64,000 nt of DNA from an uncultured Alphaproteobacteria bacterium (GTDB lineage: Bacteria > Pseudomonadota > Alphaproteobacteria > Rhodobacterales > Rhodobacteraceae): NCBI GenBank assembly GCA_902573735.1, contig CACGLH010000002.1:186001-250000 (forward strand), written 5' to 3'. Both the position numbers and the translations under genes were made by a program. Numbering within the stretch: the first letter of the stretch is position 1; each line of letters begins with the position of its first letter. Below are positions 2,570 through 49,038 of the stretch, piece by piece. The notes under the pieces were generated by a model. It saw only the letters and a program-made list of their open reading frames with translations. It was not told where the DNA came from and did no database searches.

Positions 2570-4436
2570 TTCTCTCTTTTATCACTAACCGGTTTCTTTT
2601 AAGATAAAGATTGATTAGAGTCATAGATGCTGGAGTAATTCCTTCTATTCTAGAAGCGTGTAATAAGTTAAGAGGCCTTACCAATTCAAGCTTTGAAAGA
2701 GCTTCATTGGATAGTCCTTTGATCTTCTTATAATCAATATCTTTGGGTATTTTTATGGATTCATATTTCTTAAATTCTTCTATTTCTACCATTTGCCTAC
2801 TAATGTAGACTTCATATTTTGCAATATTAGATAACTGAAGTAAGGTTTTTAACCTAATACGCTTTATTTCAGGGAGAAGTTTTGTTAATTTATTAATGTT
2901 ATCATGTGATTGACCCAAAAAATCAAAAGCTGTCCTCTTTTGGCCATCCTTTTTTACCTTTATACCAACTTTTTCTGCTTGATTTGGTGATATTTTATAA
3001 GACTTCAGAAGTTTTGACGCTATCTCAATCTCATTCATTTTTCTTTGAAAGTTTTTTTTCCTAGTGTTATCAATTGTTCCCAATTCAAAGGCTAATTTTG
3101 TTAATCTCGCATCTGCGTTATCTGCCCTTAATGACAACCTATATTCAGCTCTTGAAGTGAACATTCTATATGGCTCTAACACTCCTTTTGTTGTAAGATC
3201 ATCTATTAAAACACCTATATAACCTTGATCTCTTCCAATAATAAAAGGTTCTTGTTTTTTCAAAGAACGATAAGCATTTATTCCTGCAATCAAACCTTGC
3301 GCAGCTGCTTCTTCATATCCAGTGGTTCCATTTATTTGTCCTGCAAGGAAAAAGTTTTGAATTTTTTTTAATTCTAAAGATTGTTTAAGGCATCTTGGGT
3401 CTATATAATCATACTCAATAGCGTATCCAGGTTGTACAATCCTAACATTTTCTAAACCTTTAATGGTCGACAACAATTCCAATTGTGTGCTTTCAGGTAA
3501 AGATGTGGAGATGCCGTTTGGGTAAATTATATTTGAAATTAAACCCTCAGGCTCTAGAAAAATTTGATGCCTATCTTTATCAGAAAAACGATGAACCTTA
3601 TCCTCTATTGATGGACAATACCTAGGTCCTTTTGATGAAATATTGCCGTTGAAAATTGCTGATTTTTGCAGATTTTCATTTATAATTTCATGAGTTTTTT
3701 GATTTGTATATGTTATATGACAATCTATTTGTTTTAGGTTAATTTTCCTTGTCAAAAAAGAAAAAAACACTGGGTCACTGTCAGCCTTCTGTTTTTCAAG
3801 TATATTCCAGTTAATAGTTTTAGCATCAAGTCTTGGGGGAGTTCCTGTTTTCAACCTTCCCATAGTTAAATTTAAATCATATAAACTATTGGCTAAACTT
3901 ATAGATGCATTATCACCCTTTCTTCCCCCAGAAAAAGATTTATTGCCAATATGAATGATACCATTTAAGAAAGTGCCAGTAGTTAAAATAACTGACTTGG
4001 CATACAGTCTTTTATTATTAGAGAGTACTACCCCTTTTATTTTTTTAGCATCTATAATAAGCCCTGAAACTTCTTCAGATAAAATATTAAGATTTTTTAG
4101 TTTTGTAAGCTTATTATAGACAAAATTTTTGTAATGTTCTCTATCTATTTGAGACCTTGGGCCTTGCACAGCAGGTCCCTTGCTTCTGTTTAAGAGCCTA
4201 AACTGTATACCTGCGAAATCAGCAGCTAAAGACATAATTCCGCCTATCGCATCGATCTCTCTTACAAGATGTCCTTTACCGAGCCCACCAATTGCAGGGT
4301 TGCAAGACATTTCTCCTATCTTTTTTTGATCATTAGTGATTAAAAGTGTATTGGCACCAAGAACTGCACTCATATGAGAAGCTTCTGTTCCTGCGTGCCC
4401 CCCACCTATGACTATAATCTCATAACTTTGTTTCAC
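2550..4436 (-). CDS. mnmG: tRNA uridine-5-carboxymethylaminomethyl modification enzyme MnmG
   Basis: FAD-binding partner of MnmE (GidA); together they make cmnm5U at the tRNA wobble position. The dinucleotide-binding [14 protein letters not shown] sits at the N-terminus, and [13 protein letters not shown] and [10 protein letters not shown] are typical MnmG boxes. The ORF track starts at a TTG (4448), but the GTG at 4436 gives the usual [13 protein letters not shown] start, has a GAGG ribosome site 6 bases upstream, and yields 628 residues. That GTG lies inside a parS site. It follows mnmE in the operon. Confidence 0.95.
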
Positions 4437-4444
4437 GTGAAACC
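4429..4444. other. parS centromere-like site 2 (over the mnmG start)
   Basis: TGTTTCACGTGAAACC matches parS at 15 of 16 positions. On the minus strand the CACGTG core supplies the probable GTG start codon of mnmG, and the left edge overlaps its GAGG ribosome-binding site. The site is therefore both a ParB target and part of a translation start. Confidence 0.9.
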
Positions 4445-4457
4445 TCAAATTCTAATT

Positions 4458-5765
4458 TTACTTACCAATACAAAAATTTGAAAATATTTCTCCAAGCATG
4501 CTTTCTGTATCTATCAAACCCAACAAACCATCAATATTAAGGATTATACCCCGCAATTCATTTGCGAGCAATTCCAATTCAATTATGTCTCTGGATACCA
4601 GCTCTTTTATATTGTTAATATTATTAATACAAACATTAACTCTCTCTAAATGTCTGGTTCTATTTATCACAGTTGAAGTTATTTTTTTTGAATAAAGTTT
4701 TTCTTTTATTTGTTGTAACAAATTTTCGATACCTTTGCCAGTTTTTCCAGATATACTAGGTTCTGATCCTTTCAAATCTCCCTTAGGTCTTAAAACTATA
4801 TCTAAAGAAGATTTTTTAAGCCCTAAAGAAAGAACTTCTTCTATGTTCTCAGAAAGTATAACTCTCAAATGAGACTTGTTTGCTTTTTTTAGGGAATTAG
4901 AAATACCAATCTTTTCTATTGTATTTTTTGATTTTCTAATTCCAGCAGTGTCTAAGAAAACAATAGGGATTCCATCTAAGTTATACCTAAGTTCTATAAT
5001 GTCTCTAGTAGTTCCAGATATTCTAGAAGTAATAGCCACATCCCTCTTTGCTAACTTATTTATTAAAGTGGATTTACCTGAATTAGGTTTACCAACAATT
5101 GATACAATAAATCCAGACCTAAGAGATTCAGAAAATTTAAAACCTTTTTTTTCTTTTATAAGATCTTTTTCTAAGCAAAGTATTGATTTAGTAGCTTTTT
5201 TTATTATGTCGGTATCATCTACATCTTCATAGAAATCTATATTTGCTTCTATTAGAGATAAAATTTTTAAAACATCGTTTTTCCATTTAATTATTTTTTT
5301 ATTTGTTTTACCAGTATAAGTATCTAACGCTTGCTTCTGTTGATACTCAGTTTCTGCTTGCAAAAGGTCTGATAAACCCTCTACCTGTGTCAAGTTAAGT
5401 TTATTGTTTTCAAGAGCTCTTTGAGTAAACTCCCCAGGAAATGCTTGTCTTAAAAAAGACATTTTACTAAGTGTTTCCATCACTGTCTTAATTACTATTA
5501 TGCTACCGTGAATATGCAGTTCTGCCATTTGTTCATTAGTAAAACTTTTATTTTCCTCAAAAGATACCACTAAAGCCTCATCTAATAAGGAATTGTCGGA
5601 TGAATATATTTTTTTTAAAGATAAGGTTCTTTTTTTTTTAAAACTTGTTACATTACAACGACATAACAAACCTAGAGCATTAAGGGTATCAGGTCCAGAT
5701 ATTCTAATAACAGCTATTGCTGATACACTTTCAGGGGTAGAAAGAGCAAAAATTGTTTTTTTCAT
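4458..5765 (-). CDS. mnmE: tRNA modification GTPase MnmE
   Basis: GTPase partner of MnmG (TrmE). The N-terminal tetrahydrofolate-binding domain contains FPGEFTQRALENNKLNLTQVE. The G domain starts with GKPNSGKST and has SGTTRD and DTAGIR. The NKxD box is degenerate (PKGD). The C-terminal CIGK used in tRNA modification is intact. An ATG at 5765 gives MKKTIFALSTP, the usual start; the TTG at 5774 in the ORF track overlaps the rho stop and is an alternative. About 435 residues, slightly short for the family. Confidence 0.95.
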   Translation of the reverse strand: MKKTIFALSTPESVSAIAVIRISGPDTLNALGLLCRCNVTSFKKKRTLSLKKIYSSDNSLLDEALVVSFEENKSFTNEQMAELHIHGSIIVIKTVMETLSKMSFLRQAFPGEFTQRALENNKLNLTQVEGLSDLLQAETEYQQKQALDTYTGKTNKKIIKWKNDVLKILSLIEANIDFYEDVDDTDIIKKATKSILCLEKDLIKEKKGFKFSESLRSGFIVSIVGKPNSGKSTLINKLAKRDVAITSRISGTTRDIIELRYNLDGIPIVFLDTAGIRKSKNTIEKIGISNSLKKANKSHLRVILSENIEEVLSLGLKKSSLDIVLRPKGDLKGSEPSISGKTGKGIENLLQQIKEKLYSKKITSTVINRTRHLERVNVCINNINNIKELVSRDIIELELLANELRGIILNIDGLLGLIDTESMLGEIFSNFCIGK

Positions 5766-5770
5766 TTCTA

Positions 5771-7069
5771 TCAATTGTTCATAGAATCAAAAAACTCTGA
5801 ATTTGTTTTGGTCTGTTTCAATTTACTTAAAAGGAATTCTATTGCGTCAGTTGTTCCCATAGGGTTTAATATTCTTCTTAAAACGAAAACTTTTGTTAGT
5901 TCTGCTTTTTCTACTAATAATTCTTCTTTTCTTGTCCCTGATTTTAACAAATCAATGGCAGGAAAAACTCTTTTATCAGCAACTTTTCTATCTAATACTA
6001 ATTCAGAGTTACCTGTTCCTTTAAATTCTTCAAAAATAACCTCATCCATTCTGCTACCAGTATCAATGAGAGCTGTTGCAATAATTGTAAGTGAACCACC
6101 TTCTTCAATATTTCTGGCTGCTCCAAAAAACCTTTTTGGTCTTTGGAGAGCATTTGCATCCACACCACCAGTAAGGACTTTTCCAGAAGAGGGTACTACA
6201 GTATTATATGCTCTACCCAATCTAGTTATGGAATCTAATAATATGACTACATCTCTTTTGTGTTCTACTAATCTTTTTGCTTTTTCTATAACCATTTCTG
6301 CTACAGCAACGTGCCTTGTAGCTGGTTCATCAAAGGTTGAGGATATTACCTCTCCCTTAACCGATCTTTGCATATCTGTCACTTCTTCTGGTCTTTCATC
6401 TACTAAGAGAACTATTAGATAGCTATCTGGTTGATTTTTCTCAATAGCATGCGCAATGTTTTGAAGTATAACAGTTTTTCCTGTTCTAGGAGGAGCTACT
6501 ATTAAGGATCTCTGACCTTTACCAATAGGAGCAATTAAATCAATAACCCTAGCAGATTGATCTTTAATTGTGGGGTCTTCTATTTCCAATTTGAATCTTT
6601 CATCTGGATAAAGGGGTGTTAAATTGTCAAAGTGAATTTTATGTTTTGCTTTTTCAGGTTGAGCAAAATTTATTGCTTTCACAGTAACTAAACCAAAATA
6701 TCTTTCATTATCTTTTGGCGCACAGATTGCTCCTTCAAGAGTGTCACCAGTCCTCAATGAAAATTTTTTTATTTGAGAAGGGCTTACATATATATCATCG
6801 GGACCAGGAAGATAATTTGCATCTGTTGACCTTAAGAAACCAAAGCCGTCTTGAACAACCTCTAATACTCCATCACCGTATATTTCAACTCCATTTTCTG
6901 CCATTTCTTTTAATATAGCAAACATCATATCACCTTTTCTCATTGTCGAAGCATTATCTATTTCAATTTTTTCTGCAAACTTTAATAAATTTGCAGGCGA
7001 CTGAGACTTGAGTTCTGATAATGAAAGTTCTTTTATATTTTTAAGATCAATCTGATTTAAATCGACCAT
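5771..7069 (-). CDS. rho: Transcription termination factor Rho
   Basis: Hexameric RNA helicase that terminates transcription. An N-terminal Rho domain is followed by the RNA-binding cold-shock-like part ([15 protein letters not shown]) and the ATPase domain with P-loop APPRTGKTV and [13 protein letters not shown]. The 432 residues are normal. It lies between hemE and mnmE in the same direction, as in many alphaproteobacteria. The 82-base leader contains a small inverted repeat (ATACGG/CCGTAT, 7100-7117) without a U-run; rho leaders often carry autoregulation, but that is not shown here. Confidence 0.97.
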
Positions 7070-7151
7070 ATTAAGTCCATTAATTTAAATTGGGTGAATA
7101 TACGGAGAATACCGTATCATTAAATAATATCAAAGATTACCTAAAGTCAAT

Positions 7152-8192
7152 TTAATTTTTTTCTTTTATAGTTTTCAATAATAATTCTACGTTATGGATC
7201 TTTGCATCAGGTGTTATACCGTGTCCAAGATTGAAAATATGACCTGAAGAGGAAAACTTCTTTACAATATTTAATGTACCTTCAACTAATTCTTTTCCTC
7301 CTGAAATTAAATAAGCTGGGTCTAAATTACCCTGTATTACTATTTCTTTTTGTATATTTTTTTTTGCCCAATCTAAATCTATACTTGAATCTACAGCAAC
7401 ACAATCAAACTCTTTGACCATTGCGAATTTCTTATACATTGGACCAACCCCACGTGGGAAAACGATAACAGGTATATTGGGAAATCTTTTTTTTATTTCT
7501 TTAGCAATAACTTCCATTGGTTCCAATGAATATTTTTCAATATAAGTTGCAGGTAATGAGTTTGCCCAACTATCAAATAATTTTATAACATCAACTCCGC
7601 CTTCTATTTGTTTAGATAAATATTCTATAGTAGCGTCCTGTATTTTTACTATTAATTTTTTAAAAACCTGTGGATAGTTTAACATAAATATTTTTGTTTT
7701 AATATGATCTTTGGATCCTTTGCCTTCTATCATATAAGTAGCAACTGTCCATGGAGATCCGGCAAAACCAATAAAAGTAATATTACTTTCTAATTTTGAT
7801 CTAATATTAGTTACTGCTTCATAAACTGGCTCTAAAGTACTGTGAATATCTTCAGTATTTCTCAAATTTTCAATATCTTCATTGTTTTTAAGTGGTTCTA
7901 AAATAGGCCCAATTCCTTCTTTAAATTCCAGATGTTGACCAAGTGCATTTGGAATTAAAAGAATGTCAGCGAATAGTATAGCACCATCTAAATTAAATCT
8001 TCTTAATGGCTGTAATGTAACCTCTGTAGTCAAAGTTGGATTGTAACATAAATCTAAAAAACTACCCGCTTGTTTTCTTACTTCTCTGTATTCTGGTAGA
8101 TATCTTCCTGCTTGACGCATTAACCAAACAGGAGGTGTATTGAATTTATGACCCTGTAAAGTTTTTAACAATTTTTTATTATTATAATTCAT
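7152..8192 (-). CDS. hemE: Uroporphyrinogen decarboxylase HemE
   Basis: Decarboxylates uroporphyrinogen III to coproporphyrinogen III in haem synthesis. The signature PPVWLMRQAGRYLPEYRE is at residues 20-37, and the later segments FAGSPWTVATYM and NLGHGITPD match the family. The 346 residues are the usual length. It is the first gene of the leftward operon and borders the probable replication origin. Other haem genes (hemC, hemD) lie 22 kb away. Confidence 0.97.
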   Translation of the reverse strand: MNYNNKKLLKTLQGHKFNTPPVWLMRQAGRYLPEYREVRKQAGSFLDLCYNPTLTTEVTLQPLRRFNLDGAILFADILLIPNALGQHLEFKEGIGPILEPLKNNEDIENLRNTEDIHSTLEPVYEAVTNIRSKLESNITFIGFAGSPWTVATYMIEGKGSKDHIKTKIFMLNYPQVFKKLIVKIQDATIEYLSKQIEGGVDVIKLFDSWANSLPATYIEKYSLEPMEVIAKEIKKRFPNIPVIVFPRGVGPMYKKFAMVKEFDCVAVDSSIDLDWAKKNIQKEIVIQGNLDPAYLISGGKELVEGTLNIVKKFSSSGHIFNLGHGITPDAKIHNVELLLKTIKEKN

Positions 8193-8435
8193 AATATATA
8201 TATAAATAGTATTAGTAAGTAGTACTACTTTATTATGTGGAAAAAAAAAATTAAATACTTATTAACAATATCAGAAAAATAAATTATTGAAAAAAAACAT
8301 ATTTTAAAAATATTCACATATGTGATTAACTTAATTAACAGATATACAATTATAATAAGTATGTTTAAATAATATGGATAAACAAAAGTTTTTTAAATTT
8401 GTTGATTTTTTTGTGGAAAAGATAAAAGTTAAAAC
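8193..8435. other. Candidate chromosomal replication origin (oriC)
   Basis: A 243-base, extremely AT-rich divergent gap between hemE (-) and aroE (+). It holds DnaA-box-like 9-mers one mismatch from TGTGGATAA: TGTGGAAAA at 8236-8244, TATGGATAA at 8373-8381 and TGTGGAAAA at 8412-8420. It also has the dyad TTCACATATGTGA (8313-8325) and clustered TTAA motifs. The origin lies next to hemE in Caulobacter and Rickettsia. parS sites and parAB are 4-8 kb away, and genes on both sides point away from it. No dnaA gene is visible. Confidence 0.68.
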
Positions 8436-9284
8436 ATGCATAAAGATAAATTAGAGTTAAAAATAGCAGGTGTTATCGGTGATCCAATTAATCATACAAG
8501 ATCACCATTAATACACCAATATTGGATAAATAAAAATCAAATTAATTGTTTTTATATTCCTATAAGAGTAAAAAGTTTTGAATTAGAAAAAAAATTATTT
8601 TATATGAAAGAATTAAATTTTAGTGGTTTAAACGTAACCATACCACATAAAGAAAATATCTTAAATTTTGTTGATGAAATAAAAGATTCTGCAAAAGTTA
8701 TTGGTGCAGCAAATACAATATATTTCAAAAATGGAAAAATTATTGCTGATAATACAGATACATATGGTTTTTTCCAATCTTTAATAAAAAATTTTCCTAA
8801 TTATAATTTTAAAAAAGAAAAAGTGCTTATAATTGGTGCTGGTGGAGCGTCTAGGGCAGTTACATCTGTTTTTTTGAAACAAAATATCCAAGAAATTAGA
8901 ATAATCAATAGAAATATTGACAAAGCAATGAAAATTAAAAATGATTTATCATCAAAAATAAAAATTTATAACTGGTCTGAATTTTCAATTTCACTTAATG
9001 AAATAACAACAATTGTCAACACCACTTCATTAGGTAATTTAGGATCAGAACATTTTAACTTAAGTTTAAAGGGTGTAAAAAAGGGTGGAATAGCTATTGA
9101 TCTGATTTATAATCCGTTGAAAACATCTTTTATGAAACAAGCTGAAAAAGAAAATATGAGAGCTATAAATGGTTTAGACATGCTTATATATCAAGCAAAA
9201 AGTGGTTTCCAAAATTGGTTTAAAAATAAACCTACTTATACAAATGAATTGAGAAAAATAATTGAAGATTCTATCAAGAGTTAA
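8436..9284 (+). CDS. aroE: Shikimate dehydrogenase AroE
   Basis: NADPH-dependent reduction of 3-dehydroshikimate to shikimate. The substrate-binding GDPINHTRSPLIH is at residues 15-27, the catalytic lysine is in NVTIPHKE (about K72) and the aspartate in DNTDTYGF (about 108). The nucleotide-binding loop is GAGGASRAV. The 282 residues are normal. It is the first gene of the rightward aroE-coaE-dnaQ run beside the origin, an order typical of alphaproteobacteria. Confidence 0.95.
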   Translation: MHKDKLELKIAGVIGDPINHTRSPLIHQYWINKNQINCFYIPIRVKSFELEKKLFYMKELNFSGLNVTIPHKENILNFVDEIKDSAKVIGAANTIYFKNGKIIADNTDTYGFFQSLIKNFPNYNFKKEKVLIIGAGGASRAVTSVFLKQNIQEIRIINRNIDKAMKIKNDLSSKIKIYNWSEFSISLNEITTIVNTTSLGNLGSEHFNLSLKGVKKGGIAIDLIYNPLKTSFMKQAEKENMRAINGLDMLIYQAKSGFQNWFKNKPTYTNELRKIIEDSIKS

Positions 9285-9287
9285 AAC

Positions 9288-9881
9288 TTGACTATTAAAA
9301 TAGGGATAACCGGTTCTATAGGGATGGGAAAATCCACGGTTTCATCTATTTTTAGAAACAATAACATTAAAGTATGGGATGCAGATTCTGAGGTTCATAC
9401 TTTATATAAAAAAGGAAAAGAAGGGTACAATGCAATTATTTCAATTTATCCAGAATTACAAGATAAAGTGGAGATTAATAGAAAAAAAGTTTCTTACTTA
9501 CTAAGGGAAAAAAAAATTGATTTGAAATTGATTGAAAAAATAATTCACCCACTTTTAATAAAAAGTAGAAAGAAATTTATTAAAAAAAACGAGAGAGAAA
9601 AAATTTTAATTTTTGACATACCGCTTCTATATGAAACAAAAGCACAAATTTGGTTGGATTATGTAATTACTGTTTTTTGTTCAGAAAAAAATCAAATAAA
9701 AAGATTAAAAAAAAGAGATGATTTTGATACAAGTAAGATTAATTATTTGCTTTCCAAGCAAATACCAGTAAATAAAAAAAATAAAAAAGCAGACTTTGTA
9801 ATTGATACTGATAAAAATATGCAACAAGTTGAAAAACAGGTTATTAATATTATAAAAAAAATGAGAAAATCTAATGATTAG
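9288..9881 (+). CDS. coaE: Dephospho-CoA kinase CoaE
   Basis: Last step of coenzyme A synthesis: phosphorylates the 3'-hydroxyl of dephospho-CoA. The P-loop GITGSIGMGKST is at residues 6-17, followed by DADSEVHTLY and the lid/core segment FDIPLLYE. It starts with TTG three bases after the aroE stop, and its end overlaps dnaQ by 8 bases. At 197 residues it has the usual length. Confidence 0.94.
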   Translation: MTIKIGITGSIGMGKSTVSSIFRNNNIKVWDADSEVHTLYKKGKEGYNAIISIYPELQDKVEINRKKVSYLLREKKIDLKLIEKIIHPLLIKSRKKFIKKNEREKILIFDIPLLYETKAQIWLDYVITVFCSEKNQIKRLKKRDDFDTSKINYLLSKQIPVNKKNKKADFVIDTDKNMQQVEKQVINIIKKMRKSND

Positions 9882-10605
9882 AGAAATAGTTTTAGATACA
9901 GAAACCACAGGTTTAGATCCATTAGAGGGCCATAAAATAATTGAAATTGCAGCTATCGAATTAATAGACCATATAAAAACTGAAAAAAATTTCCATTTTT
10001 TTATAAATCCAGAAAGAGAAATACCCGAAGCTAGTCAAAAAATACATAATATTTCAAATGAAAAAGTAAAAGATAAACCAAAATTTAGGGAAATCTACAA
10101 AAAATTCCTAGATTTTATAAAAGATGATTGTTTAGTAATTCATAATGCAGAATTTGATTTAAAATTCTTAAATTATGAACTTAATGAAATTGGAGTAGGT
10201 GATATAAACAATGAAGTAATTGATACACTAAAAATCGCAAGATCCAAATATCCTGGATCATCCGTTTCACTAGATTCTTTGTGTAAAAAATTTAATATAG
10301 ATATTAAAAAAAGAGTGGAAAATGGACACGGTGCACTGATTGATTGTCACTTGTTGAGCGAAGTGTATTTGGAAATACTGGGTGGTAAACAGCCGATTTT
10401 AAACCTCAATAAAGATTATACAAACTATGAAAAAGAAAAAAGTCGAAATAAAATTGAGCATTTTATAAGACAGAATAAACTTAAGCCAAGATTAAATGAA
10501 GGAGTAATCGACAAACATTTAAAATTTTTAAAAGAGATAGATTCTGAAAATTCTTGGGGTAATTTTCATAAAAACTTATTTAGTAAATTAAATTCTAAAT
10601 TATAA
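9874..10605 (+). CDS. dnaQ: DNA polymerase III epsilon subunit (proofreading exonuclease)
   Basis: DEDDh 3'-5' exonuclease that proofreads for the replicase. The Exo I motif LDTETTGLDP gives D8 and E10, Exo II is HNAEFDLKFL, and Exo III is HGALIDCHLLSEVY. The 243 residues fit the family; the C-terminal tail would contact the alpha subunit. It overlaps coaE by 8 bases. In many relatives secB follows nearby on the other strand; none is seen here. Confidence 0.95.
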   Translation: MIREIVLDTETTGLDPLEGHKIIEIAAIELIDHIKTEKNFHFFINPEREIPEASQKIHNISNEKVKDKPKFREIYKKFLDFIKDDCLVIHNAEFDLKFLNYELNEIGVGDINNEVIDTLKIARSKYPGSSVSLDSLCKKFNIDIKKRVENGHGALIDCHLLSEVYLEILGGKQPILNLNKDYTNYEKEKSRNKIEHFIRQNKLKPRLNEGVIDKHLKFLKEIDSENSWGNFHKNLFSKLNSKL

Positions 10606-36548: not shown

Positions 36549-37361
36549 TTATATAATTGCACCACGCACTTTGGCTGATACCCATTCGGAAACAAATACT
36601 GTAGCTAAAATTACAAGCAAAATAGTAGAAACCTGTGTCCATGCTAGTGTGTTAATAGATCCATTTAATTGCAAACCTATTCCACCTGCACCAACCAGAC
36701 CTAATATTGTTGATTCTCTTATGTTTATATCCCAACGGTAGATCCCTACGCCTGCAATAGTTGGTAATACTTGAGGAATTATTCCATATATCATTTGCTG
36801 TAAATTGCTTGCACCTGTTGCTTTAACAGCCTCTACTTGATTAGCATCTATTTCTTCAATTGACTCATAAATTAACTTTGCACAAAAACCAATTGATCTT
36901 AACCCTATGGCAACAGTTCCGGCAAGGACACCAGGCCCTAGTATAAATACTAACATAAGTGCCCAGATGAGAGAGTTTACCGATCTTGAAGCAACAATTA
37001 TAAATAAAGCTACTATTCTTACGGTACTATGAGGAGTTGTATTTCTAGCTGCACAAAATGCAACTGGTACTGCTATAATCATAGCTATTACGGTACCTAA
37101 AGTAGCTATATTTATAGTGTCCCAAACAGGTTTAATCAATTCAAGTGAATAAGACCATTTGGGAGGTACCATCCTAGAGCCAATATCTGCGGCTTGCCTT
37201 GGTGCATCTTGTACAAAGAACCATACTGTTTTGTCTGAAATTATTTTCCAGGCAAATAAAACAATAGAAATACCAATTAACCAATAAAACCAATTAATCC
37301 ATTGTTCTCGTGTAGTTCTTTTTTTCCAAACTAATTCATCTTGTTTTTTTTGGACTACCAT
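36549..37361 (-). CDS. phnE: Phosphonate ABC transporter permease PhnE (second copy)
   Basis: Inner-membrane permease of 270 residues from the ATG at 37361, which overlaps the stop of the first phnE (taATG). The ORF track uses a GTG four codons earlier. The EAA loop for ATPase contact is VEAVKATGASNLQQMIYGIIPQVLP, followed by YRWDINIRESTILGLVGAGGIGLQL, characteristic of PhnE. It would pair with the other PhnE as a heterodimer. It is the last gene of phnD-phnC-phnE-phnE. Confidence 0.94.
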   Translation of the reverse strand: MVVQKKQDELVWKKRTTREQWINWFYWLIGISIVLFAWKIISDKTVWFFVQDAPRQAADIGSRMVPPKWSYSLELIKPVWDTINIATLGTVIAMIIAVPVAFCAARNTTPHSTVRIVALFIIVASRSVNSLIWALMLVFILGPGVLAGTVAIGLRSIGFCAKLIYESIEEIDANQVEAVKATGASNLQQMIYGIIPQVLPTIAGVGIYRWDINIRESTILGLVGAGGIGLQLNGSINTLAWTQVSTILLVILATVFVSEWVSAKVRGAII

Positions 37362-38173
37362 TATTGCACCCACTTTCGAAGATGGCTGGATGCATATTCT
37401 AAAACCATAACAATCCCTATAATTACTAATAAAATAGCTGCAGCAGTATCAAATTCATAACGTGAAAATGCTGTATTTAATGTAGCCCCTATACCTCCTC
37501 CTCCAACTATACCCACTACTGCTGACTCTCTAAAATTTATATCTAATCTGTATACTGATAAACCTATCATCCTAGGCATTACTTGAGGTTGAATAGCATA
37601 ATTAATCCATTGAAACCAATTTGCTCCTGTTGCTTTGACGGCTTCAGCTTGCGCAGGACTGCTATTTTCAATATCTTCTGCAAGTAATTTTGCAAAAAAA
37701 CCAATTGTTCCAAGACTTAAAGCAATAAATCCTGCAAAAGGACCAAATCCAAAAAGTTTAACTGCAAAAATAGCTAATATGATTTCAGGAAATGTTCTTG
37801 AAGCTGCAATAATAAATCTACAGGTCATGTAAACCCATAATGGGGCTAGGTTTCTTGCTGCTCCAAGCCCTATTGGTATTGATAGAGCTATACCGGCAAC
37901 TGTAGAAATGATAGCCATCCATATGCTTTCAAGAATTCCTTCCCATACCACGCCACGATTATCTGAAAAGTTAGGTGGAAAAAATGATTCTATAAATCGT
38001 TGTCCTCTGGGAATACCCTCTAAAACTCTTTGGATATTAATATCCATACTTGACAAAGCAGCAATCAAATAAAGGATAGAACCAATAATGATCGACCATC
38101 TTAACCAACTTCTCTTTATAAAAGGGGGTTTTTTCCAGTTTTTTGGGTATAATGTTTTACTTACATTATTCAT
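37361..38173 (-). CDS. phnE: Phosphonate ABC transporter permease PhnE (first copy)
   Basis: Permease of 270 residues with about six membrane segments. The EAA-loop AEAVKATGANWFQWINYAIQPQVMP and YRLDINFRESAVVGIVGGGGIGATL are typical PhnE. It starts 6 bases after phnC and overlaps the second phnE by one base. Two unequal permease genes are common in alphaproteobacterial phosphonate transporters. Confidence 0.95.
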   Translation of the reverse strand: MNNVSKTLYPKNWKKPPFIKRSWLRWSIIIGSILYLIAALSSMDINIQRVLEGIPRGQRFIESFFPPNFSDNRGVVWEGILESIWMAIISTVAGIALSIPIGLGAARNLAPLWVYMTCRFIIAASRTFPEIILAIFAVKLFGFGPFAGFIALSLGTIGFFAKLLAEDIENSSPAQAEAVKATGANWFQWINYAIQPQVMPRMIGLSVYRLDINFRESAVVGIVGGGGIGATLNTAFSRYEFDTAAAILLVIIGIVMVLEYASSHLRKWVQ

Positions 38174-38179
38174 TAAGTA

Positions 38180-38965
38180 TTAAACTTCCTCATCTTCATC
38201 ATCTACTTTTTCAATAGTTGCAGACCAATCCTCTTCCCCATAAATTTTAGTTAAAACTTCTGGAGTTAGGCCTTCAGGGCTCCCATCATAAACTATATTT
38301 CCTAAAGCGAGACCTACTATTCTTTGTGAAAACATTTGAGCTAATAAAACATCATGTATATTAATGATTGCCGTGAGACCTCTTTCTTGACAAAGCTCAT
38401 TAATTAGTCTCATGATTTGTCTTGAGGTTTTAGGATCTAAACTTGCAGTTGGTTCATCAACTAGTAGAAGATCTGGGTCCTGAATTAAAGCTCTACAAAT
38501 CCCTACTCGTTGTCTTTGTCCCCCAGACAATTCATCAGCTCTTTTGTCAGCCATTTCTAAAAGACCAACCCTATCTAAAAGTCTGAACGCTTCATTCACA
38601 TCTTTTTTAGGAAATCTTCTTAAGAAACTTTTCCAAAATCCAACATATCCCAAACGTCCTGATAAAACGTTTTCCATTACAGTAAGTCTTTCGACTAAGG
38701 CATATTCTTGAAAAATCATGCCCATTTTTCTACGTGATTTTCTTAATGCTCTTGACGATAATTTAGTTAAATTTACTTCATTTAGAATGGCTGAACCATT
38801 TGTAGGCTCAACTAATCTGTTAATACATCTTATTAAGGTAGATTTTCCAGCTCCTGACGGTCCAATGAGTGCTAGTACTTGTCCATTAGGAATTCTTAAA
38901 TCAATACCTTGCAAGGCAAGATCACCAGTATTATATCTTTTTGTCAAATTTTCTAATTTTAACAT
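38180..38965 (-). CDS. phnC: Phosphonate ABC transporter ATP-binding protein PhnC
   Basis: ABC ATPase of 261 residues: Walker [12 protein letters not shown]-loop [16 protein letters not shown], signature [15 protein letters not shown], Walker [33 protein letters not shown] and the [18 protein letters not shown] region are characteristic of PhnC. The ATG at 38965 is preferred over the TTG one codon earlier. A terminator-like hairpin lies between phnD and this gene. Confidence 0.95.
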
Positions 38966-38975
38966 CAACTACTCA

Positions 38976-39032: not shown

Positions 39033-40010
39033 CTACTTACAGTCGTAGCTAACTCCATTTGCTTTATCAATTTGTCTAATTACAGCCCAGTCATTCATAT
39101 GGCGAATACCTATAAAACGATCTGCTTTTGCAAATTCTTTTTTATAAAGTGGGTCGTCGTCAAAATCCCATGTAAAAAAAGCTGCTTTGATTTTTGCAAC
39201 TAACTCCGGATGTAAATTATGAGCATGTCCGTATCCTGTAGTGGGAAAAGTAGGCGAACGATATACAGCCCTAAGTTTTCCTTCTTCAATAACACCTCTT
39301 CTTATCATTCTTTGAAGAACAGAATTAGCCACAGATGCAATTTCGTAATCTCCATTATAAACTCCTAGAATGGAATTATCATGTTTGCCTGAAAATGTAG
39401 GTGTAAAATCTCTATCGGCAATTAAATCAAATTCGCCTTTCAATATAGCGGATGGTGCTTTGAACCCAGAATTTGAAGTTGGGGAAGTAAATGCAAGAGT
39501 CCTGCCTTTAATCTCACTTGGAGACTGAATGGGACTATCAGCTTTAACTATTATCTCCATTTCATAACCATAAGAACCATCATCTTTAGCATGCATTGCA
39601 AAAGGTACAAAACCAGCACAACTAACAGCTATGGGATTGGACCCAGTATTGAAACCGGCTACATGTAAACGACCTGATCTCATGGCCTCTAATTGAGCCG
39701 CATTTGATTCAACAGGAAAAAATACAACTTTTCTATCAGTATGTTTCTCAAGATGCTTTACAAAATTTTGCCAAATATTCGCATAAACAGCTGGATCTTC
39801 AACAGGTGTATAGGTAAAAATAATTGTTTTTGGATCTACTCAATCTTTTGAATCTAATGGCAAATCAGCTACTTGATCAAAATTTCTGTCGCAGTAAGCA
39901 GTATCCAAAGTACCCCTATTACAATCTTCGGCAAAAGAGGCAATAGAACTGAAACATAAACTAGAGATCAATAAGGATAAAGCTAACCCTATTTTATAAT
40001 AAATTTTCAT
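39033..40010 (-). pseudogene. phnD: Phosphonate-binding protein PhnD, interrupted by an in-frame TGA
   Basis: Periplasmic phosphonate-binding protein. The full frame runs from the ATG at 40010 (strong GGAGGGA site) and has a signal peptide (IGLALSLLISSLCFSSIASFA). TGA at 39842-39840, codon 57, interrupts LDSKD-stop-VDPKTIIFTYTPVEDPAVY; reading continues without shift to the stop at 39033, 325 codons. The ORF track shows only the last 216 residues. One base change (TGG to TGA) would explain it. Real nonsense mutation, sequencing error or readthrough are open; neighbouring genes use TGA as stop. Confidence 0.9.
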
Positions 40011-43433: not shown

Positions 43434-44471
43434 TTATTTTATTCTAAAAATTAGAAAAGGAACAAAAAAAGTTAAAAAAATAATTCTTATCACATGGTGT
43501 ATTGCTACATAAGTTGGATCTGCATTAACTATACTTCCCATTGCAATCATTGTTTCTAATCCGCCAGGAGCAAAGGCTATTATTGCATCGACTAATTCAA
43601 TATTTGTAATTTTTGATGTAAGGAATGCAAAAAATAAAGAAAATAATGCCCCTACTAAAGTTAGTGAAAATCCACCGATAAATGAAGTTTTCAATAATTT
43701 TAAATCTACAGAAACAAACCTGGCGCCTATTACAACTCCAAGAGTAATAAAAGCAAAAATAGAAAAAACAGGATTCATTAACCCTTCTGTAATACCACTG
43801 CCATGACTAAATGTTGTACAGATCATTCCACCCATTAGAAATGGAGCTGGAACTTTAGTATTCATTATTGCAAGTCCAATTAACAATGAAAAAATAATAA
43901 TTAAGATTAATTGTATGAAGGATATAGTATTTTCATTTAATTCAAAATTATTAGAGATTTCAGTATCAGAAGTTATAACAACTAATATGGGTGTAAGCAA
44001 AGTTAGGCTAAGAACTCTGATTGACTGAATTATTGCAATTTTGGGAGTATTTGTTTTGATATCATTGCTAATGCTTAATACAAAACTTAAATGACCAGGA
44101 GAAGATGCTAATATGGAAGTTTTTTTGTCCAATGAATAATAGGACAAAAAAAGCATTCCAAATAAAGTGATTAGAATGACTGTAGAAACCATCATTAATA
44201 AACTTATTGGCCAAGTGGAAATTTGAGCTAATGAATTTGGTGTAATATTTGAACCGATCGTTATACCAATAATTGCAAACCCAAAATTTCTAAGGAAAAT
44301 TGGAATTGAGAACTTTAATCCTAGGATCGCACTAATGGAGCAAATTATGGTAGGACCTAGAAGAAATGGCGCTGGTAATTTCATTTGCCATGCCAAAAAA
44401 GCTCCCAAAGATCCTAGTATAATAGATACAATTAATTCAATTGTAGACTTTTTATTTCTTGATGAAAGCAT
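43434..44471 (-). CDS. AbrB family membrane protein
   Basis: Duplicated AbrB-type domain: about ten hydrophobic helices with two related halves, marked by LGAFLAWQMKLPAPFLLGPTII and MNTKVPAPFLMGGMICTT, and the ending FAPGGLETMIAMGSIVNADPTYVAIHHVIRI. Annotated as AbrB or putative ammonia monooxygenase, but a transport role is more likely from the topology. It is the last gene of the tctCBA-AtuA-DUF4387 operon and starts at the stop of the small gene before it. Confidence 0.88.
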   Translation of the reverse strand: MLSSRNKKSTIELIVSIILGSLGAFLAWQMKLPAPFLLGPTIICSISAILGLKFSIPIFLRNFGFAIIGITIGSNITPNSLAQISTWPISLLMMVSTVILITLFGMLFLSYYSLDKKTSILASSPGHLSFVLSISNDIKTNTPKIAIIQSIRVLSLTLLTPILVVITSDTEISNNFELNENTISFIQLILIIIFSLLIGLAIMNTKVPAPFLMGGMICTTFSHGSGITEGLMNPVFSIFAFITLGVVIGARFVSVDLKLLKTSFIGGFSLTLVGALFSLFFAFLTSKITNIELVDAIIAFAPGGLETMIAMGSIVNADPTYVAIHHVIRIIFLTFFVPFLIFRIK

Positions 44472-44770
44472 TATTTTATTTTTAATTCCTCTAAAATAAT
44501 ACCAAAGGATGCACCATGAAGGTCCCTATCTTTTGAAGATCCTTGGATATTAGGTCTTGGAATAGTTATTTTGACTATAAATAAGTCTTTTATTGGGAAA
44601 ATTTCTATTTGTTTTTTTGGTATTTTATATAGTCTCGAAATTTCAATTTTTGTTATTTTTTGAATTATTGTTTCAAATGTCTTTCTATTTGAACAAAAAA
44701 TATCGATTGTTAATAAAAATGGCCCTGCATTTTTACTTCTAATTTTTTTTACTAACTCTTTTAATCTCAT
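44471..44770 (-). CDS. DUF4387-like small protein, partner of the AtuA-family protein
   Basis: Ninety-nine residues with VKKIRSKNAGPFLLTIDIFC, IPRPNIQGSSKDRDLHGASFG and a short C-terminus, matching the small DUF4387/AtuA-like family that accompanies DUF1446 proteins. It overlaps the AtuA-family stop by 4 bases, so the two are probably translated together and may form a complex. Biochemical function is unknown. Confidence 0.8.
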   Translation of the reverse strand: MRLKELVKKIRSKNAGPFLLTIDIFCSNRKTFETIIQKITKIEISRLYKIPKKQIEIFPIKDLFIVKITIPRPNIQGSSKDRDLHGASFGIILEELKIK

Positions 44771-46122
44771 ATTGAATATTTTTCTAATTTAAAAATATCC
44801 ATAGGATTTTTTACACTTATAACATGATTTAAACAAAATGCGTATTTTTTGCCAATATTGAATGAAGGTGGAGACAATGGAAAAGAAAAGGTTGGTAACT
44901 CAGTTTTTTTAAATAGTGAATGGTGCAATAATAAAGGATTGAGAATTTTACTTATTTCTTCACATTCGTATTGTTTTTTTGCTGTTACTACAACTAAGAC
45001 CCCTATTTCATTTGGTTCCACGGTTTTTCTTTCCAACGAACCTAAAGTTGCATTTTTCCCAACAAATCTAAATTGTATTTTGTAATTTTTCTTCTTTAAT
45101 GATAAGGAACTATCAACAATCTTTTTTACTTTATTTTCGACTTGTTTTGACCATTTTTTAATACTCTTGACGTAAGTTTCATCTCTTATCAAAACTATTG
45201 AAATGGATTGGTATCCTTCAACATATGTCCCTTCTAGTTTGATCTTATAATTATTGTCCTTTACCCAATTAGCTCCAGTAACATATACTGAACCATCCTT
45301 TTGTTTTTCATAAATTGCTTTTTTAACATCTAGATGTCCTCCAGGTTCAATCAAAGTGAAAGGGTTTGAATTTTCATAAACCATATGAGCAGATACTGTA
45401 AAAGGTGTTACCTTGGTGTTATTGCTAACTGGTTTAATAAAAAAACCATTTTTTTTAAAGGAAATAAGGATAACACCTGATCTAGGATTTGTGGTACAGA
45501 AAGCTCCACATTCCCCTATTTTACCAGCATGCCAGGCGATTGCTTTGTCAACACCTTTCATAATAGGGAGGCTTGCAATTAAGGATGCATCGGTAGATCT
45601 TCCACAAATTATGATATCTGCTTTGGTATTTATTGCTTCTGTAATTTGTTCAACACCAGCAAGGCCTACAATATTTGTACAATTTATAATTTTTTTTGAG
45701 GAAATTTTAGGGGCATTATTTAAGGGGGAAAGATTTTTACTTAAAAAAGCTTTATTAATATTTTTTTTTGATTGAGAGCATTTTAATAAGGTAATTTTTA
45801 TATTTTGATTTAATTCTTTAGCTAATTCTTTAGTAATTTCTAAAAACCAATCAACTGTTTTATCCGTTCCACAAGTTCCAGCGCTTCCAATTAATAAGGG
45901 AATTTTTAATTTTTCCCTAGCTACCATTAATGTCTTCCATTCAGATTTAGTAGAAGATCTTGAATATTTAGATTTTCCTTTTCCAAGGTAAGCAGGACCA
46001 GAGTCAGTTGATCCACCATCTACTACTATGATATCTGGTTTTTCTTTTAAGCCCCTTTCTAATGCTTTCTTACAATAAGTAATTCCTAAAGCACCAGTAG
46101 GAACTAAAACCTTTACATTCAT
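44767..46122 (-). CDS. AtuA-family (DUF1446) protein
   Basis: About 451 residues from the ATG at 46122 (the ORF track uses a TTG four codons before). It has the family pattern KVLVPTGALG, DIIVVDGGSTDSGPAYLG, SAGTCGTDKTVDWF, ADIIICGRSTDASL and GECGAFCTTNPRSGV. AtuA is required for acyclic terpene use in Pseudomonas, but most family members with a DUF4387 partner have no assigned reaction. It lies downstream of a TTT transporter, suggesting action on an imported carboxylate. Confidence 0.88.
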   Translation of the reverse strand: MNVKVLVPTGALGITYCKKALERGLKEKPDIIVVDGGSTDSGPAYLGKGKSKYSRSSTKSEWKTLMVAREKLKIPLLIGSAGTCGTDKTVDWFLEITKELAKELNQNIKITLLKCSQSKKNINKAFLSKNLSPLNNAPKISSKKIINCTNIVGLAGVEQITEAINTKADIIICGRSTDASLIASLPIMKGVDKAIAWHAGKIGECGAFCTTNPRSGVILISFKKNGFFIKPVSNNTKVTPFTVSAHMVYENSNPFTLIEPGGHLDVKKAIYEKQKDGSVYVTGANWVKDNNYKIKLEGTYVEGYQSISIVLIRDETYVKSIKKWSKQVENKVKKIVDSSLSLKKKNYKIQFRFVGKNATLGSLERKTVEPNEIGVLVVVTAKKQYECEEISKILNPLLLHHSLFKKTELPTFSFPLSPPSFNIGKKYAFCLNHVISVKNPMDIFKLEKYSI

Positions 46123-46126
46123 TGTA

Positions 46127-47629
46127 CTATCCAATTGGTGTTGGTTTTTTTAGATAAGATCTTAAAAAAATTGGTGCAATAAAACCTATAAAGGCTGCAA
46201 TCCACAATCCTACCGAAATATAAGAATTAAATAGATAGGTCCAGTCACCATTGGATAAAACCATTGCTCTTCTTAAACTTACTTCCATGTGTCCTCCAAG
46301 CAAAATTCCAAGTATAACAGGAACTGCAGGTATTTTTAATTTTCGTAAGGTAAAACCTAAAACACCAAACCCTATCATTAGTAAAAGATCAAAATAGCTT
46401 CCAGATAAGGAATAAATTCCAACAAAAGAAACCATAGCTACTCCAGGCAGTAAAAATGATGCTGGTACTTGAAGAATTTTTGTAAATACTTTTACTAAAG
46501 GAACATTCAAAATTAATAAAACAAAGTTAGCTATTAATAGTGTTGCTATTAAACCCCAAACCACCTCTGGTCTTTCATTAAAAAGGAGTGGTCCTGGTGT
46601 TATGTTTAATGTCATCAATAAAGCAAGTAAAACAGCAGTTGTTCCAGAACCAGGTACTCCTAAAGTTAACATTGGAACAAGTGCACCTCCAGCAGCGGCA
46701 TTATTTCCAGCTTCTGGAGCAGCTACGCCTCTAATATCCCCTGTTCCAAAAGTCTTTTTTTCTTTAGCTAAAGATTTTTCACTCATATAAGCAAGAAAAC
46801 TACCTAAAGAAGCTCCTGCTCCAGGAAGAACTCCTGCTATAAAGCCAACAGTAGTTGCTCTTAGCATTGTCCATTTGGTCGCCAATATATCTTTTATAGG
46901 AATTGAGATTTTTCCTAGTTTTACTCCAATAGCGGAGTCTTTTCCTCTACTTTCGATAAAAACAAATATTTCAGTAACTGCAAAAAGACCAACAATTGCT
47001 ACTAAAAAATCCACACCATCATATAAATGAAGGTTTCCTCCAGTAAATCTTGTCATTCCAGTTGAATTATCTACACCTATCATTGAAATGCCTAATCCTA
47101 AGCATACTGCAATTGCTGATTTTGCTTGGTTTTCAGCGCCTATTCCTCCAAGTGTACAAAATGCTAGAAGATATAATGCAAAGTATTCAGCTGGGCCAAA
47201 ATAAAACGCGACTCTTGCTAAGATTGGTGCTAAAAGCATTAGTCCTATTGTAGCGAGAAAAGCTCCGACAAAAGACGATACACCCGAAAGTACCAGGGCA
47301 TCACCAGCTCTTCCTTTTTTTGCCATTGGATAACCGTCAAGAGTTGTCATCATAGCAGGTTCATCACCAGGTATATTTAAGAGAATCGACGATATTCTTC
47401 CTCCATACATGGCTCCATAATACACACTAGTCATGAGAACGAGAGCTTGTGTTGCATCTAACTCTAAGGTAAAGGCAAGAGGTATGAGTATTGCTACGCC
47501 ATTGGAAGGTCCAAGTCCTGGTAAAGCCCCAATAATTGTTCCAAGAATGCACCCTATTATAGCTAAGCTAAGAGTAGTTAATGTAAGTGCAATACCAAAA
47601 CCAAGAGCTAAATTTTGAAAAAGTTCCAT
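46127..47629 (-). CDS. tctA: Tripartite tricarboxylate transporter large permease TctA
   Basis: About 12 membrane helices over 500 residues. The duplicated motif GTIIGALPGLGPSNGVAILIP near the N-terminus and GVLPGAGASLGSFLAYMSEK in the middle are the TctA signature. The ATG at 47629 is preferred; a TTG two codons earlier is possible. With tctB and tctC it forms a binding-protein-dependent secondary carrier for a di- or tricarboxylate. It overlaps the AtuA-family gene region. Confidence 0.95.
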   Translation of the reverse strand: MELFQNLALGFGIALTLTTLSLAIIGCILGTIIGALPGLGPSNGVAILIPLAFTLELDATQALVLMTSVYYGAMYGGRISSILLNIPGDEPAMMTTLDGYPMAKKGRAGDALVLSGVSSFVGAFLATIGLMLLAPILARVAFYFGPAEYFALYLLAFCTLGGIGAENQAKSAIAVCLGLGISMIGVDNSTGMTRFTGGNLHLYDGVDFLVAIVGLFAVTEIFVFIESRGKDSAIGVKLGKISIPIKDILATKWTMLRATTVGFIAGVLPGAGASLGSFLAYMSEKSLAKEKKTFGTGDIRGVAAPEAGNNAAAGGALVPMLTLGVPGSGTTAVLLALLMTLNITPGPLLFNERPEVVWGLIATLLIANFVLLILNVPLVKVFTKILQVPASFLLPGVAMVSFVGIYSLSGSYFDLLLMIGFGVLGFTLRKLKIPAVPVILGILLGGHMEVSLRRAMVLSNGDWTYLFNSYISVGLWIAAFIGFIAPIFLRSYLKKPTPIG

Positions 47630-47635
47630 TTGCAA

Positions 47636-48073
47636 TTAACCTAAAAGAAATTTTGGGAAAGGAAAAAGACTCAGTCCTAATCCAAATTTAAATATTGTGA
47701 ATAACGATAAAGATAAGATTAAACCAGTTGCTGATGATTTAAAAATACTGGGTTGTATTAAGTAGGATAAAGCAGCAGATGCCAATGCTGTAGGTAAAAG
47801 GAAACCAAATGTTTTTAATGAAAAAGCATATAAGATTAAAACAATTAAAGCTGTAAATAATTTAATTAAAGTTTTAACATTTGGCCACAATGGGTCTTTA
47901 TCTGGTTTTATTATCATTGTTATTGAACAAATCAAAGCAGCACCAGAAACTATAAAAGGAAAGTTTTTGGGTCCTAAAGGGTCAGCAAAAAAGGGTGATT
48001 CCAACTGGGTAGCACTGACAAAAAATGTCAGTGCTAATATAGTTAAAGTAGAGCCGAATATTCGGTCTGACAC
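47636..48073 (-). CDS. tctB: Tripartite tricarboxylate transporter small permease TctB
   Basis: Four membrane helices over 145 residues with the TctB patterns FFADPLGPKNFPFIVSGAAL and AFSLKTFGFLLPTALASAALSYLI. It starts with GTG sharing one base with the tctC stop (taGTG), and tctA follows within a few bases, so the three are co-translated. Confidence 0.9.
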   Translation of the reverse strand: MSDRIFGSTLTILALTFFVSATQLESPFFADPLGPKNFPFIVSGAALICSITMIIKPDKDPLWPNVKTLIKLFTALIVLILYAFSLKTFGFLLPTALASAALSYLIQPSIFKSSATGLILSLSLFTIFKFGLGLSLFPFPKFLLG

Positions 48074-49038
48074 TATTTCATTACACCAAGTTCTTTGGAT
48101 AAAGCTTGGACTTCAGCCATAACTCCAACAACATAATCTTGGAAGTTTGGACCAACTTTATTAAATGGTGCTAATCCGTTGGCTTCCATGGCCTTTTTCC
48201 ACTCTGCGGAATCACCAACTTTTCTGAGGGCCTCAGTCCATTTTTTATATGAAGCATCAGATGCACCTTTCGGAGTATACAAACCTCTCCAATTAACAGC
48301 AACTACATCAATTCCCTGTTCTTTGGCAGTAGGAATATCTTCAAAACCAGGAATTCTTTCGTCTGTAAATGAAGCAAGTACTCTTACATCACCAGATTTG
48401 ATAAACCCAACAACCCCGGAAATATCACCAGTCATAGCAGCGGTAAAACCACCTACTGTTTGAGTAATAGCGTCAGCATCTCCATCAACACCAATATATT
48501 TAACCTTAGCAATATCGGTAAACCCTTTTTTTCCTAAAGCCATTAATACTTTTAAGTGATCAAAACCACCTGCAGCAGATCCCCCAGCAAAAGCATGATT
48601 TGCAGGATCTGCAATAACAGCATCAAGTAAGTCATTTAAATTTTTATAAGGTGAGTCTGCAGCTACTACTATAACTCCAGGGTCTGCACCAATAGCGCCA
48701 AGAAAACGTACTTGATCATAGGTCATTCCAGAATAGGCATTCTGCGCTAACCTTGTGGCTGTTGCAGAAGAAGCAGCTACTATTAAGTTGTCATCTGTAT
48801 TTCTTTCATTTACTACATGACCGTAGGCTAAGCCTCCGCCTCCACCTGCCATATTAGTTACCTGAATAGGTGAATCATAAGCACCAATATCATACATAAT
48901 TTTTGTAATAGTTCTGCAAGTAAAGTCCCAGCCACCACCTGGATTTGCTGGTGCTATACATTCAGCTGAAAACAAACTTGTAGCTGCAAAGAATGTAACT
49001 GACAATCCAGCAGCAAAAGATTTAATTTTTTTGATCAT
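48073..49038 (-). CDS. tctC: Tripartite tricarboxylate transporter substrate-binding protein TctC
   Basis: Periplasmic binding protein of the Bug family, 321 residues: signal peptide (SFAAGLSVTFFAATSLFSAE), then CIAPANPGGGWDFTCRTI, the ligand loop typical of Bug proteins, and FAGGSAAGGFDHLKVLMAL. A strong AGGAGG-type ribosome site precedes the ATG. It is the first gene of the six-gene tctCBA-AtuA-DUF4387-AbrB operon. Substrate (citrate, tartrate, other) is not predictable from the sequence. Confidence 0.94.
   Translation of the reverse strand: MIKKIKSFAAGLSVTFFAATSLFSAECIAPANPGGGWDFTCRTITKIMYDIGAYDSPIQVTNMAGGGGGLAYGHVVNERNTDDNLIVAASSATATRLAQNAYSGMTYDQVRFLGAIGADPGVIVVAADSPYKNLNDLLDAVIADPANHAFAGGSAAGGFDHLKVLMALGKKGFTDIAKVKYIGVDGDADAITQTVGGFTAAMTGDISGVVGFIKSGDVRVLASFTDERIPGFEDIPTAKEQGIDVVAVNWRGLYTPKGASDASYKKWTEALRKVGDSAEWKKAMEANGLAPFNKVGPNFQDYVVGVMAEVQALSKELGVMK

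Follow-up and report, generated by a model that had tools for sequence, protein, structure and literature searches.

The AtuA-family/DUF4387 gene pair analysed here has its closest solved relatives in two PDB entries, 9erq and 9evf, whose chains were named by the depositors as citramalate lyase subunits A and B (cmlA, cmlB); the title of 9evf, released on 2025-10-08, reads 'Citramalate lyase - ADP - pyruvate complex'. The putative citramalate lyase activity of CmlAB is taken from these PDB titles. In E. coli, Salmonella and Prevotella, the CmlAB pair comes after the methylaspartate (citramalate-forming) genes, with mal on one side and a class I fumarase/mesaconase gene on the other; the paper describing the mesaconase remarked on a DUF1446 gene at the methylaspartate locus and did not settle what becomes of citramalate (PMC4682846). 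Should the naming of CmlAB be right, the enterobacterial methylaspartate route would gain the final step that it has been lacking. Literature searches on citramalate lyase since 2015, on citramalate with TctC or Roseobacter, and on AtuA with TTT transporters returned no paper on CmlAB or on the operon described below; no papers were retrieved for DUF4387, and DUF1446 appeared only in passing.

Lyase functions have also been assigned to other proteins of this family. AtuA is a proposed acetate lyase (PMC4847356), a step given to LiuE instead in another review (PMC4097962), and ThnQ/ThnS are AtuA-like lyases of anaerobic naphthalene degradation (PMC12016498). From these accounts we infer that citramalate lyase, AtuA and ThnQ/ThnS all cleave between a tertiary hydroxylated carbon and the carbon beside a carboxylate; for ThnQ/ThnS, where the tertiary hydroxylated carbon is beside a carboxylate-bearing carbon, the likeness is drawn from the description of the cleavage. 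On the transport side, the substrates of TTT importers are mostly dicarboxylates or citrate (PMC5812351). The citrate importer TctCBA-TctDE of Salmonella and BctCBA-BctDE of Bordetella are encoded in the order tctC-tctB-tctA, and SlcHFG of Roseovarius, in the Roseobacter group, is a TTT system for a hydroxy acid, sulfolactate (PMC5812351).

The window, a stretch of 64,000 nucleotides from an uncultured member of the Rhodobacteraceae, carries six open reading frames on its minus strand between positions 43434 and 49038, in the order TctC-TctB-TctA-AtuA-DUF4387-AbrB. All six have Pfam matches that exceed the curated cut-offs:

48073 to 49038, minus strand: TctC periplasmic substrate-binding protein, 321 aa (Pfam PF03401, E 1.2e-24)
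47636 to 48073, minus strand: TctB small membrane subunit, 145 aa (Pfam PF07331, E 2.7e-14)
46127 to 47635, minus strand: TctA large membrane subunit, 502 aa (Pfam PF01970, E 2.8e-148)
44767 to 46134, minus strand: AtuA-family, CmlA-like predicted lyase subunit, 455 aa from a TTG start (Pfam PF07287, E 2.5e-23)
44471 to 44770, minus strand: DUF4387, CmlB-like predicted lyase subunit, 99 aa (Pfam PF14330, E 8.2e-24)
43434 to 44471, minus strand: AbrB-type membrane protein, accessory, 345 aa (Pfam PF05145, E 3.8e-65; TIGR03082 duplication domain)

The reading frames and Pfam matches thereby bear out an earlier note on this DNA, which had described six overlapping or nearly touching genes on one strand. 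According to the coordinates, TctC and TctB overlap by 1 base and TctB abuts TctA with zero gap, while AtuA and DUF4387 overlap by 4 bases and DUF4387 and AbrB by 1 base. AtuA overlaps TctA by 8 bases if it begins at the TTG codon and lies 4 bases away from it if it begins at the ATG at 46122, the likelier of the two starts. An AGGAGG motif stands immediately 5' of the TctC ATG. The operon is flanked by a convergent aldehyde dehydrogenase gene, 4 bases away, and upstream by a GH1 beta-glucosidase gene on the same strand, neither of which is a regular neighbour of the block beyond the genus in the relatives' loci. Promoter-like sites were no commoner than in shuffled sequence (16 vs 24.4), and the borders of the operon are for this reason defined by gene spacing alone. 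Elsewhere, the window holds a phnD-like phosphonate/phosphite-binding gene on the minus strand (39033-39980), next to phnC (38180-38968) and phnE (37361-38173). A single in-frame stop, at about 39840-39842, breaks the phnD-like frame, which includes a signal peptide, and the gene is therefore either broken or misread.

Comparison with the PDB places both proteins of the pair close to CmlAB. The window AtuA protein matches 9erq_A (CmlA) over residues 7-445 with a phmmer E of 5.5e-66 and a profile E of 1.4e-171, and the DUF4387 protein matches 9erq_B (CmlB) with E 5.8e-8 and a profile E of 3.5e-36, both subunits being homologous over their full length. AlphaFold2 models, built from input alignments from which plasmid-record rows were left out, reached a mean pLDDT of 94.5 for AtuA and 96.0 for DUF4387; in Foldseek searches of the PDB their sole matches at E <= 0.001 were 9evf_A (TM 0.93) and 9evf_B (TM 0.90), respectively. 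In an alignment of 45 diverse AtuA proteins headed by the window protein, 20 columns are invariant, among them D39, D44, R179, D182, K205, E208, C209, E254, K299, E301 and E376; the window protein keeps these family-invariant residues and has invariant residues in common with CmlAB, whose genes are likewise adjacent, A then B. The pair is thus very probably a relative of CmlAB citramalate lyase. The view that it had no assigned reaction, as the earlier note put it, no longer holds, given the deposited names of these homologues and the lyase functions ascribed to AtuA and ThnQ/ThnS.

The pair also resembles a full-length AtuA divided over two genes. A comparison of the DUF4387 profile with that of AtuA_ferredoxin (PF23544) by hhalign gave a probability of 93.5% over 81 columns with a score of 42.9, well above controls with 40 column shuffles (at most 19.1) and with the reversed profile (13.0), and by this comparison DUF4387 and the AtuA_ferredoxin domain at the C-terminus of full-length AtuA are homologous. 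Because of this homology, the AtuA/DUF4387 pair represents a split AtuA, and the window protein shares the AtuA domain with the full-length enzyme. Full-length AtuA is one chain of about 600-640 aa that acts on a CoA ester and is encoded in a terpene operon, whereas the window has two genes beside an importer, with DUF4387 as a separate 99-aa gene; PF23544 has no match in the window's own genome. Fused forms do occur in nature: in each of two alphaproteobacterial genomes, a single protein of about 693-699 aa contains both AtuA and DUF4387 (L119:7570-9666 and L120:7669-9747). The middle segment of the L119 fusion matches no other Pfam family. Near-constant adjacency, the natural fusion and homology to a solved two-subunit enzyme indicate that the pair is very probably a two-subunit enzyme, as had been proposed. 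A terpene substrate, which the family name would suggest, was set aside in view of the absence of an AtuA_ferredoxin gene from the genome, membership of another clade and the presence of an importer for small polar acids in the operon. The public annotations 'acyclic terpene utilization' and 'DUF4387' are misleading for these proteins. Reading the pair as a split AtuA, or CmlAB-type lyase, would give one reaction class, the release of acetate by cleavage beside a hydroxylated carbon, to a family found with many transporters.

To place the block among its relatives, we compared about 80 loci of 8-19 kb, with genes called by homology scoring, from genomes of the window's family and from a sample across the phylum, together with 15 annotated plasmid regions. 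DUF4387 is present in 64 of 199 genomes of the family and in 25 of 399 sampled across the phylum. The gene order is preserved in four uncultured alphaproteobacterial single-cell genomes (L002-L005), with AtuA proteins 87-98% identical, and again in one further genome from the genus (L036); a copy of the pair also occurs in Paracoccus seriniphilus (L097). Purifying selection acts on all six genes (dN/dS 0.00-0.42; 0.02-0.05 for TctC). TctCBA-AtuA-DUF4387 recurs throughout the family, so the arrangement is not due to chance. Pairwise distances of AtuA and DUF4387 correlate with r 0.87 (0.70 without the window genus), above the correlation of either with any Tct gene, and those of TctA and TctC with r 0.80 (0.68 without the window genus), which fits an enzyme module joined to a transporter module.

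In a tree of 100 AtuA proteins, the window protein falls within a clade of 56, of which 49 are labelled TTT-linked, and the label changes only 10 times over the tree compared with 33.6 in shuffles. DUF4387 follows AtuA in all 57 loci of this clade. In 43 of them a same-strand TctA is no more than 150 bases away, and in 47 TctA or TctC lies within 3.2 kb; three more (L079, L088, L091) have their Tct genes beyond a regulator, raising the number of loci with TTT genes near the pair to 50, against 4 of 44 loci outside the clade. Two of the seven clade loci that lack TTT genes end at contig ends. TTT linkage is thus a property of the window clade and not of the pair in general: the tie to a TTT importer claimed by the earlier note stands inside the clade and fails outside it, where the pair occurs mostly without TTT genes, the case that the note itself had named as refuting, and has neighbours such as methylaspartate genes and TRAP or peptide-type ABC transporters.

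The importer itself has the features of its family. TctC, TctB and TctA occur together in the order C-B-A, as in TctCBA and BctCBA, and the best PDB match of TctC is 25hk, a TTT binding protein (E 1.1e-28). Behind a hydrophobic N-terminal signal sequence, TctC carries the signature PANPGGGWD, which compared with P-F-X-A-G-G-X-X-D retains the highly conserved P, G, G and D and differs at the F and A positions. SlcHFG differs from the window genes in having tctB downstream of tctA and other catabolic genes, and TctCBA and BctCBA in that the window operon includes a predicted lyase. A response regulator, a 2CSK_N histidine kinase and a periplasmic binding protein adjoin the block in 27 of the 57 clade loci, mostly in divergent orientation; the regulator and kinase recall TctDE and BctDE beside the citrate importers (PMC5812351), from which the relatives are set apart by the additional periplasmic binding protein beside the kinase. 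The regulator and the 2CSK_N kinase are absent from the window, and the kinase was not found in its genome.

That genome encodes three TctA proteins and one AtuA protein, so the pair belongs to one importer. Its second TTT locus (L134, contig C24 of G000, 3982-10177) has a LacI-type regulator, a 660-aa TctA-containing protein, two separate ComA (phosphosulfolactate synthase-like) genes and a 358-aa reading frame without a Pfam or NCBIfam match, and suggests sulfonate or sulfolactate chemistry around the importer. At the third (L133, contig C1 of G000, 2908-9224), the TTT genes lie alongside an amidohydrolase, a sulfatase and a 3-hydroxyisobutyrate dehydrogenase-like gene.

The TTT genes and the pair could still share an operon while serving unrelated substrates. 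The scarcity of TTT genes beside the pair outside the clade would agree with such hitch-hiking, as would the slower divergence of TctA and TctC (mean distance 0.19-0.25 vs 0.38-0.46 for the pair), but the order and near-zero gaps are conserved over the whole family, the TctDE-like regulator stands beside the cluster at many loci, and even the inverted arrangements (the three loci with a regulator in between) keep TTT genes and pair together. We therefore consider this explanation improbable.

In our judgement the operon probably couples the uptake of one hydroxy acid to the first step of its catabolism, in which a CmlAB-type lyase would yield an oxo acid and acetate. This reading builds on the homology, fold, pairing, natural fusion and TTT linkage observed above, and extends them to a lyase activity, a substrate class and a role for a nucleotide. 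In the periplasm, TctC would bind a hydroxy-di- or tricarboxylate, which TctAB would then bring inside, the transport role being established for the TTT family. The AtuA/DUF4387 heterodimer would cut the C-C bond that joins the hydroxyl-bearing carbon to the adjacent carbon beside a free carboxylate; acetate and a 2-oxo acid (or other keto compound) would result, with no need for an acyl carrier or CoA. ATP or ADP would probably take part, because 9evf is, going by its title only, a complex with ADP and pyruvate; the nucleotide might serve to phosphorylate the carboxylate that leaves as acetate, through an acyl phosphate. In the relatives' loci there is, a few genera excepted, no conserved gene 3' of DUF4387, as would be expected of products that can be used without another dedicated enzyme; if the substrate were citramalate, the products would be pyruvate and acetate, and the end of the operon at DUF4387 in most relatives would follow because both enter central metabolism directly. 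The earlier interpretation was correct in part: there is good support for a two-subunit enzyme that acts on the imported acid, but the pair is no longer without a reaction class.

Two narrower forms of this importer-plus-lyase reading differ in the acid. In the first, the pair is a true citramalate lyase, and the TTT system imports citramalate, or mesaconate that is hydrated first. The naming of CmlAB and the pyruvate in the 9evf complex speak for it. Methylaspartate ammonia-lyase (PF07476) was not found in the window's genome, which is 77% complete, so that citramalate would not come from glutamate by the methylaspartate route and would need another one, for example uptake. However, the operon has no mesaconase gene, and the window pair lies beside a TTT importer, whereas CmlAB lies beside glmSLE-mal-fumarase genes. 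The window protein also belongs to the TTT clade and not to that of the methylaspartate-linked CmlA proteins, and at about 30 positions each of the two clades has a fixed residue of its own, including Q309/R307, T181/Y179, T87/G85, S45/P43, W66/L64 and E263/G262 (TTT clade/CmlA clade). Q309 replaces an arginine that is invariant in the CmlA clade, and a different group could accordingly stand at the position of one carboxylate. Given this separation, the substrate may be one other than citramalate, which is the leading single guess but in our estimate a possible substrate rather than a probable one.

The second form, a lyase for another imported tertiary hydroxy acid that gives acetate and a different oxo acid, appears plausible though still short of probable. 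It fits the clade-specific residues, the range of acids handled across the AtuA family, which includes citramalate as well as terpenoid and cyclohexyl acids, and the breadth of TTT ligands. Candidates are 3-hydroxy-3-methylglutarate, 2-isopropylmalate, dimethylmalate, citrate or an unrecognised marine acid; among them, citrate would be an unlikely substrate in an aerobe that has the TCA cycle already. It is conceivable, if doubtful, that the TTT-linked pairs of the Rhodobacterales make up a new functional subfamily of acetate lyases that use a nucleotide and are independent of CoA, with a substrate that is not citramalate but another hydroxy acid taken up from sea water by marine bacteria. Were this so, the ligand of TctC and the substrate of the lyase would together identify a carbon source unrecognised for these bacteria. 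With importer and predicted lyase side by side in the family, what TctC binds and what the pair cleaves could jointly reveal the acid.

A CoA-independent reaction has its own competitor, in which a family III CoA-transferase, encoded nearby or elsewhere, first activates the imported acid and the pair then acts on its CoA ester, like full-length AtuA and ThnQ/ThnS, whose substrates are CoA esters. Family III CoA-transferases do occur at several loci, and CoA-transferase genes lie near the pair in the clade loci L047, L070, L079, L087, L088, L091 and L093. Neither the window operon nor the vicinity of the pair in most clade members has a CoA-transferase or ligase, however, and the nearest relative of known structure takes its name from a free acid; we regard this alternative as unlikely. 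An Ldh-family oxidoreductase gene lies near the block in Shinella (L098) and in L044.

The last gene of the window operon stands apart from the rest. AbrB occurs within 1 kb of AtuA in only 9 of the 57 clade loci, so it does not belong to the core of the system, and it is treated here as an accessory membrane protein. It is the sole PF05145 gene of the window's genome and has no solved relative by sequence; in a Variovorax record, an AbrB gene lies behind a TctC.

The pair was also seen in other settings. A second AtuA/DUF4387 clade (L057-L062, L064, L066, L110, L113) is accompanied by SBP_bac_5/OppB-type ABC transporter genes, with an AAT-family gene (PF03417) at many loci and a sigma-54 activator at several; its substrate must be quite different. 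On Variovorax and Cupriavidus plasmids (L099, L103), the pair adjoins hydantoinase/oxoprolinase A and B genes and a phosphoglycerate dehydrogenase-like gene. Finally, a conjugative Klebsiella plasmid from a retail vegetable (L101) carries an AtuA/DUF4387-dehydrogenase-fumarase catabolic cluster a few kilobases from a region with IS26 and resistance genes.
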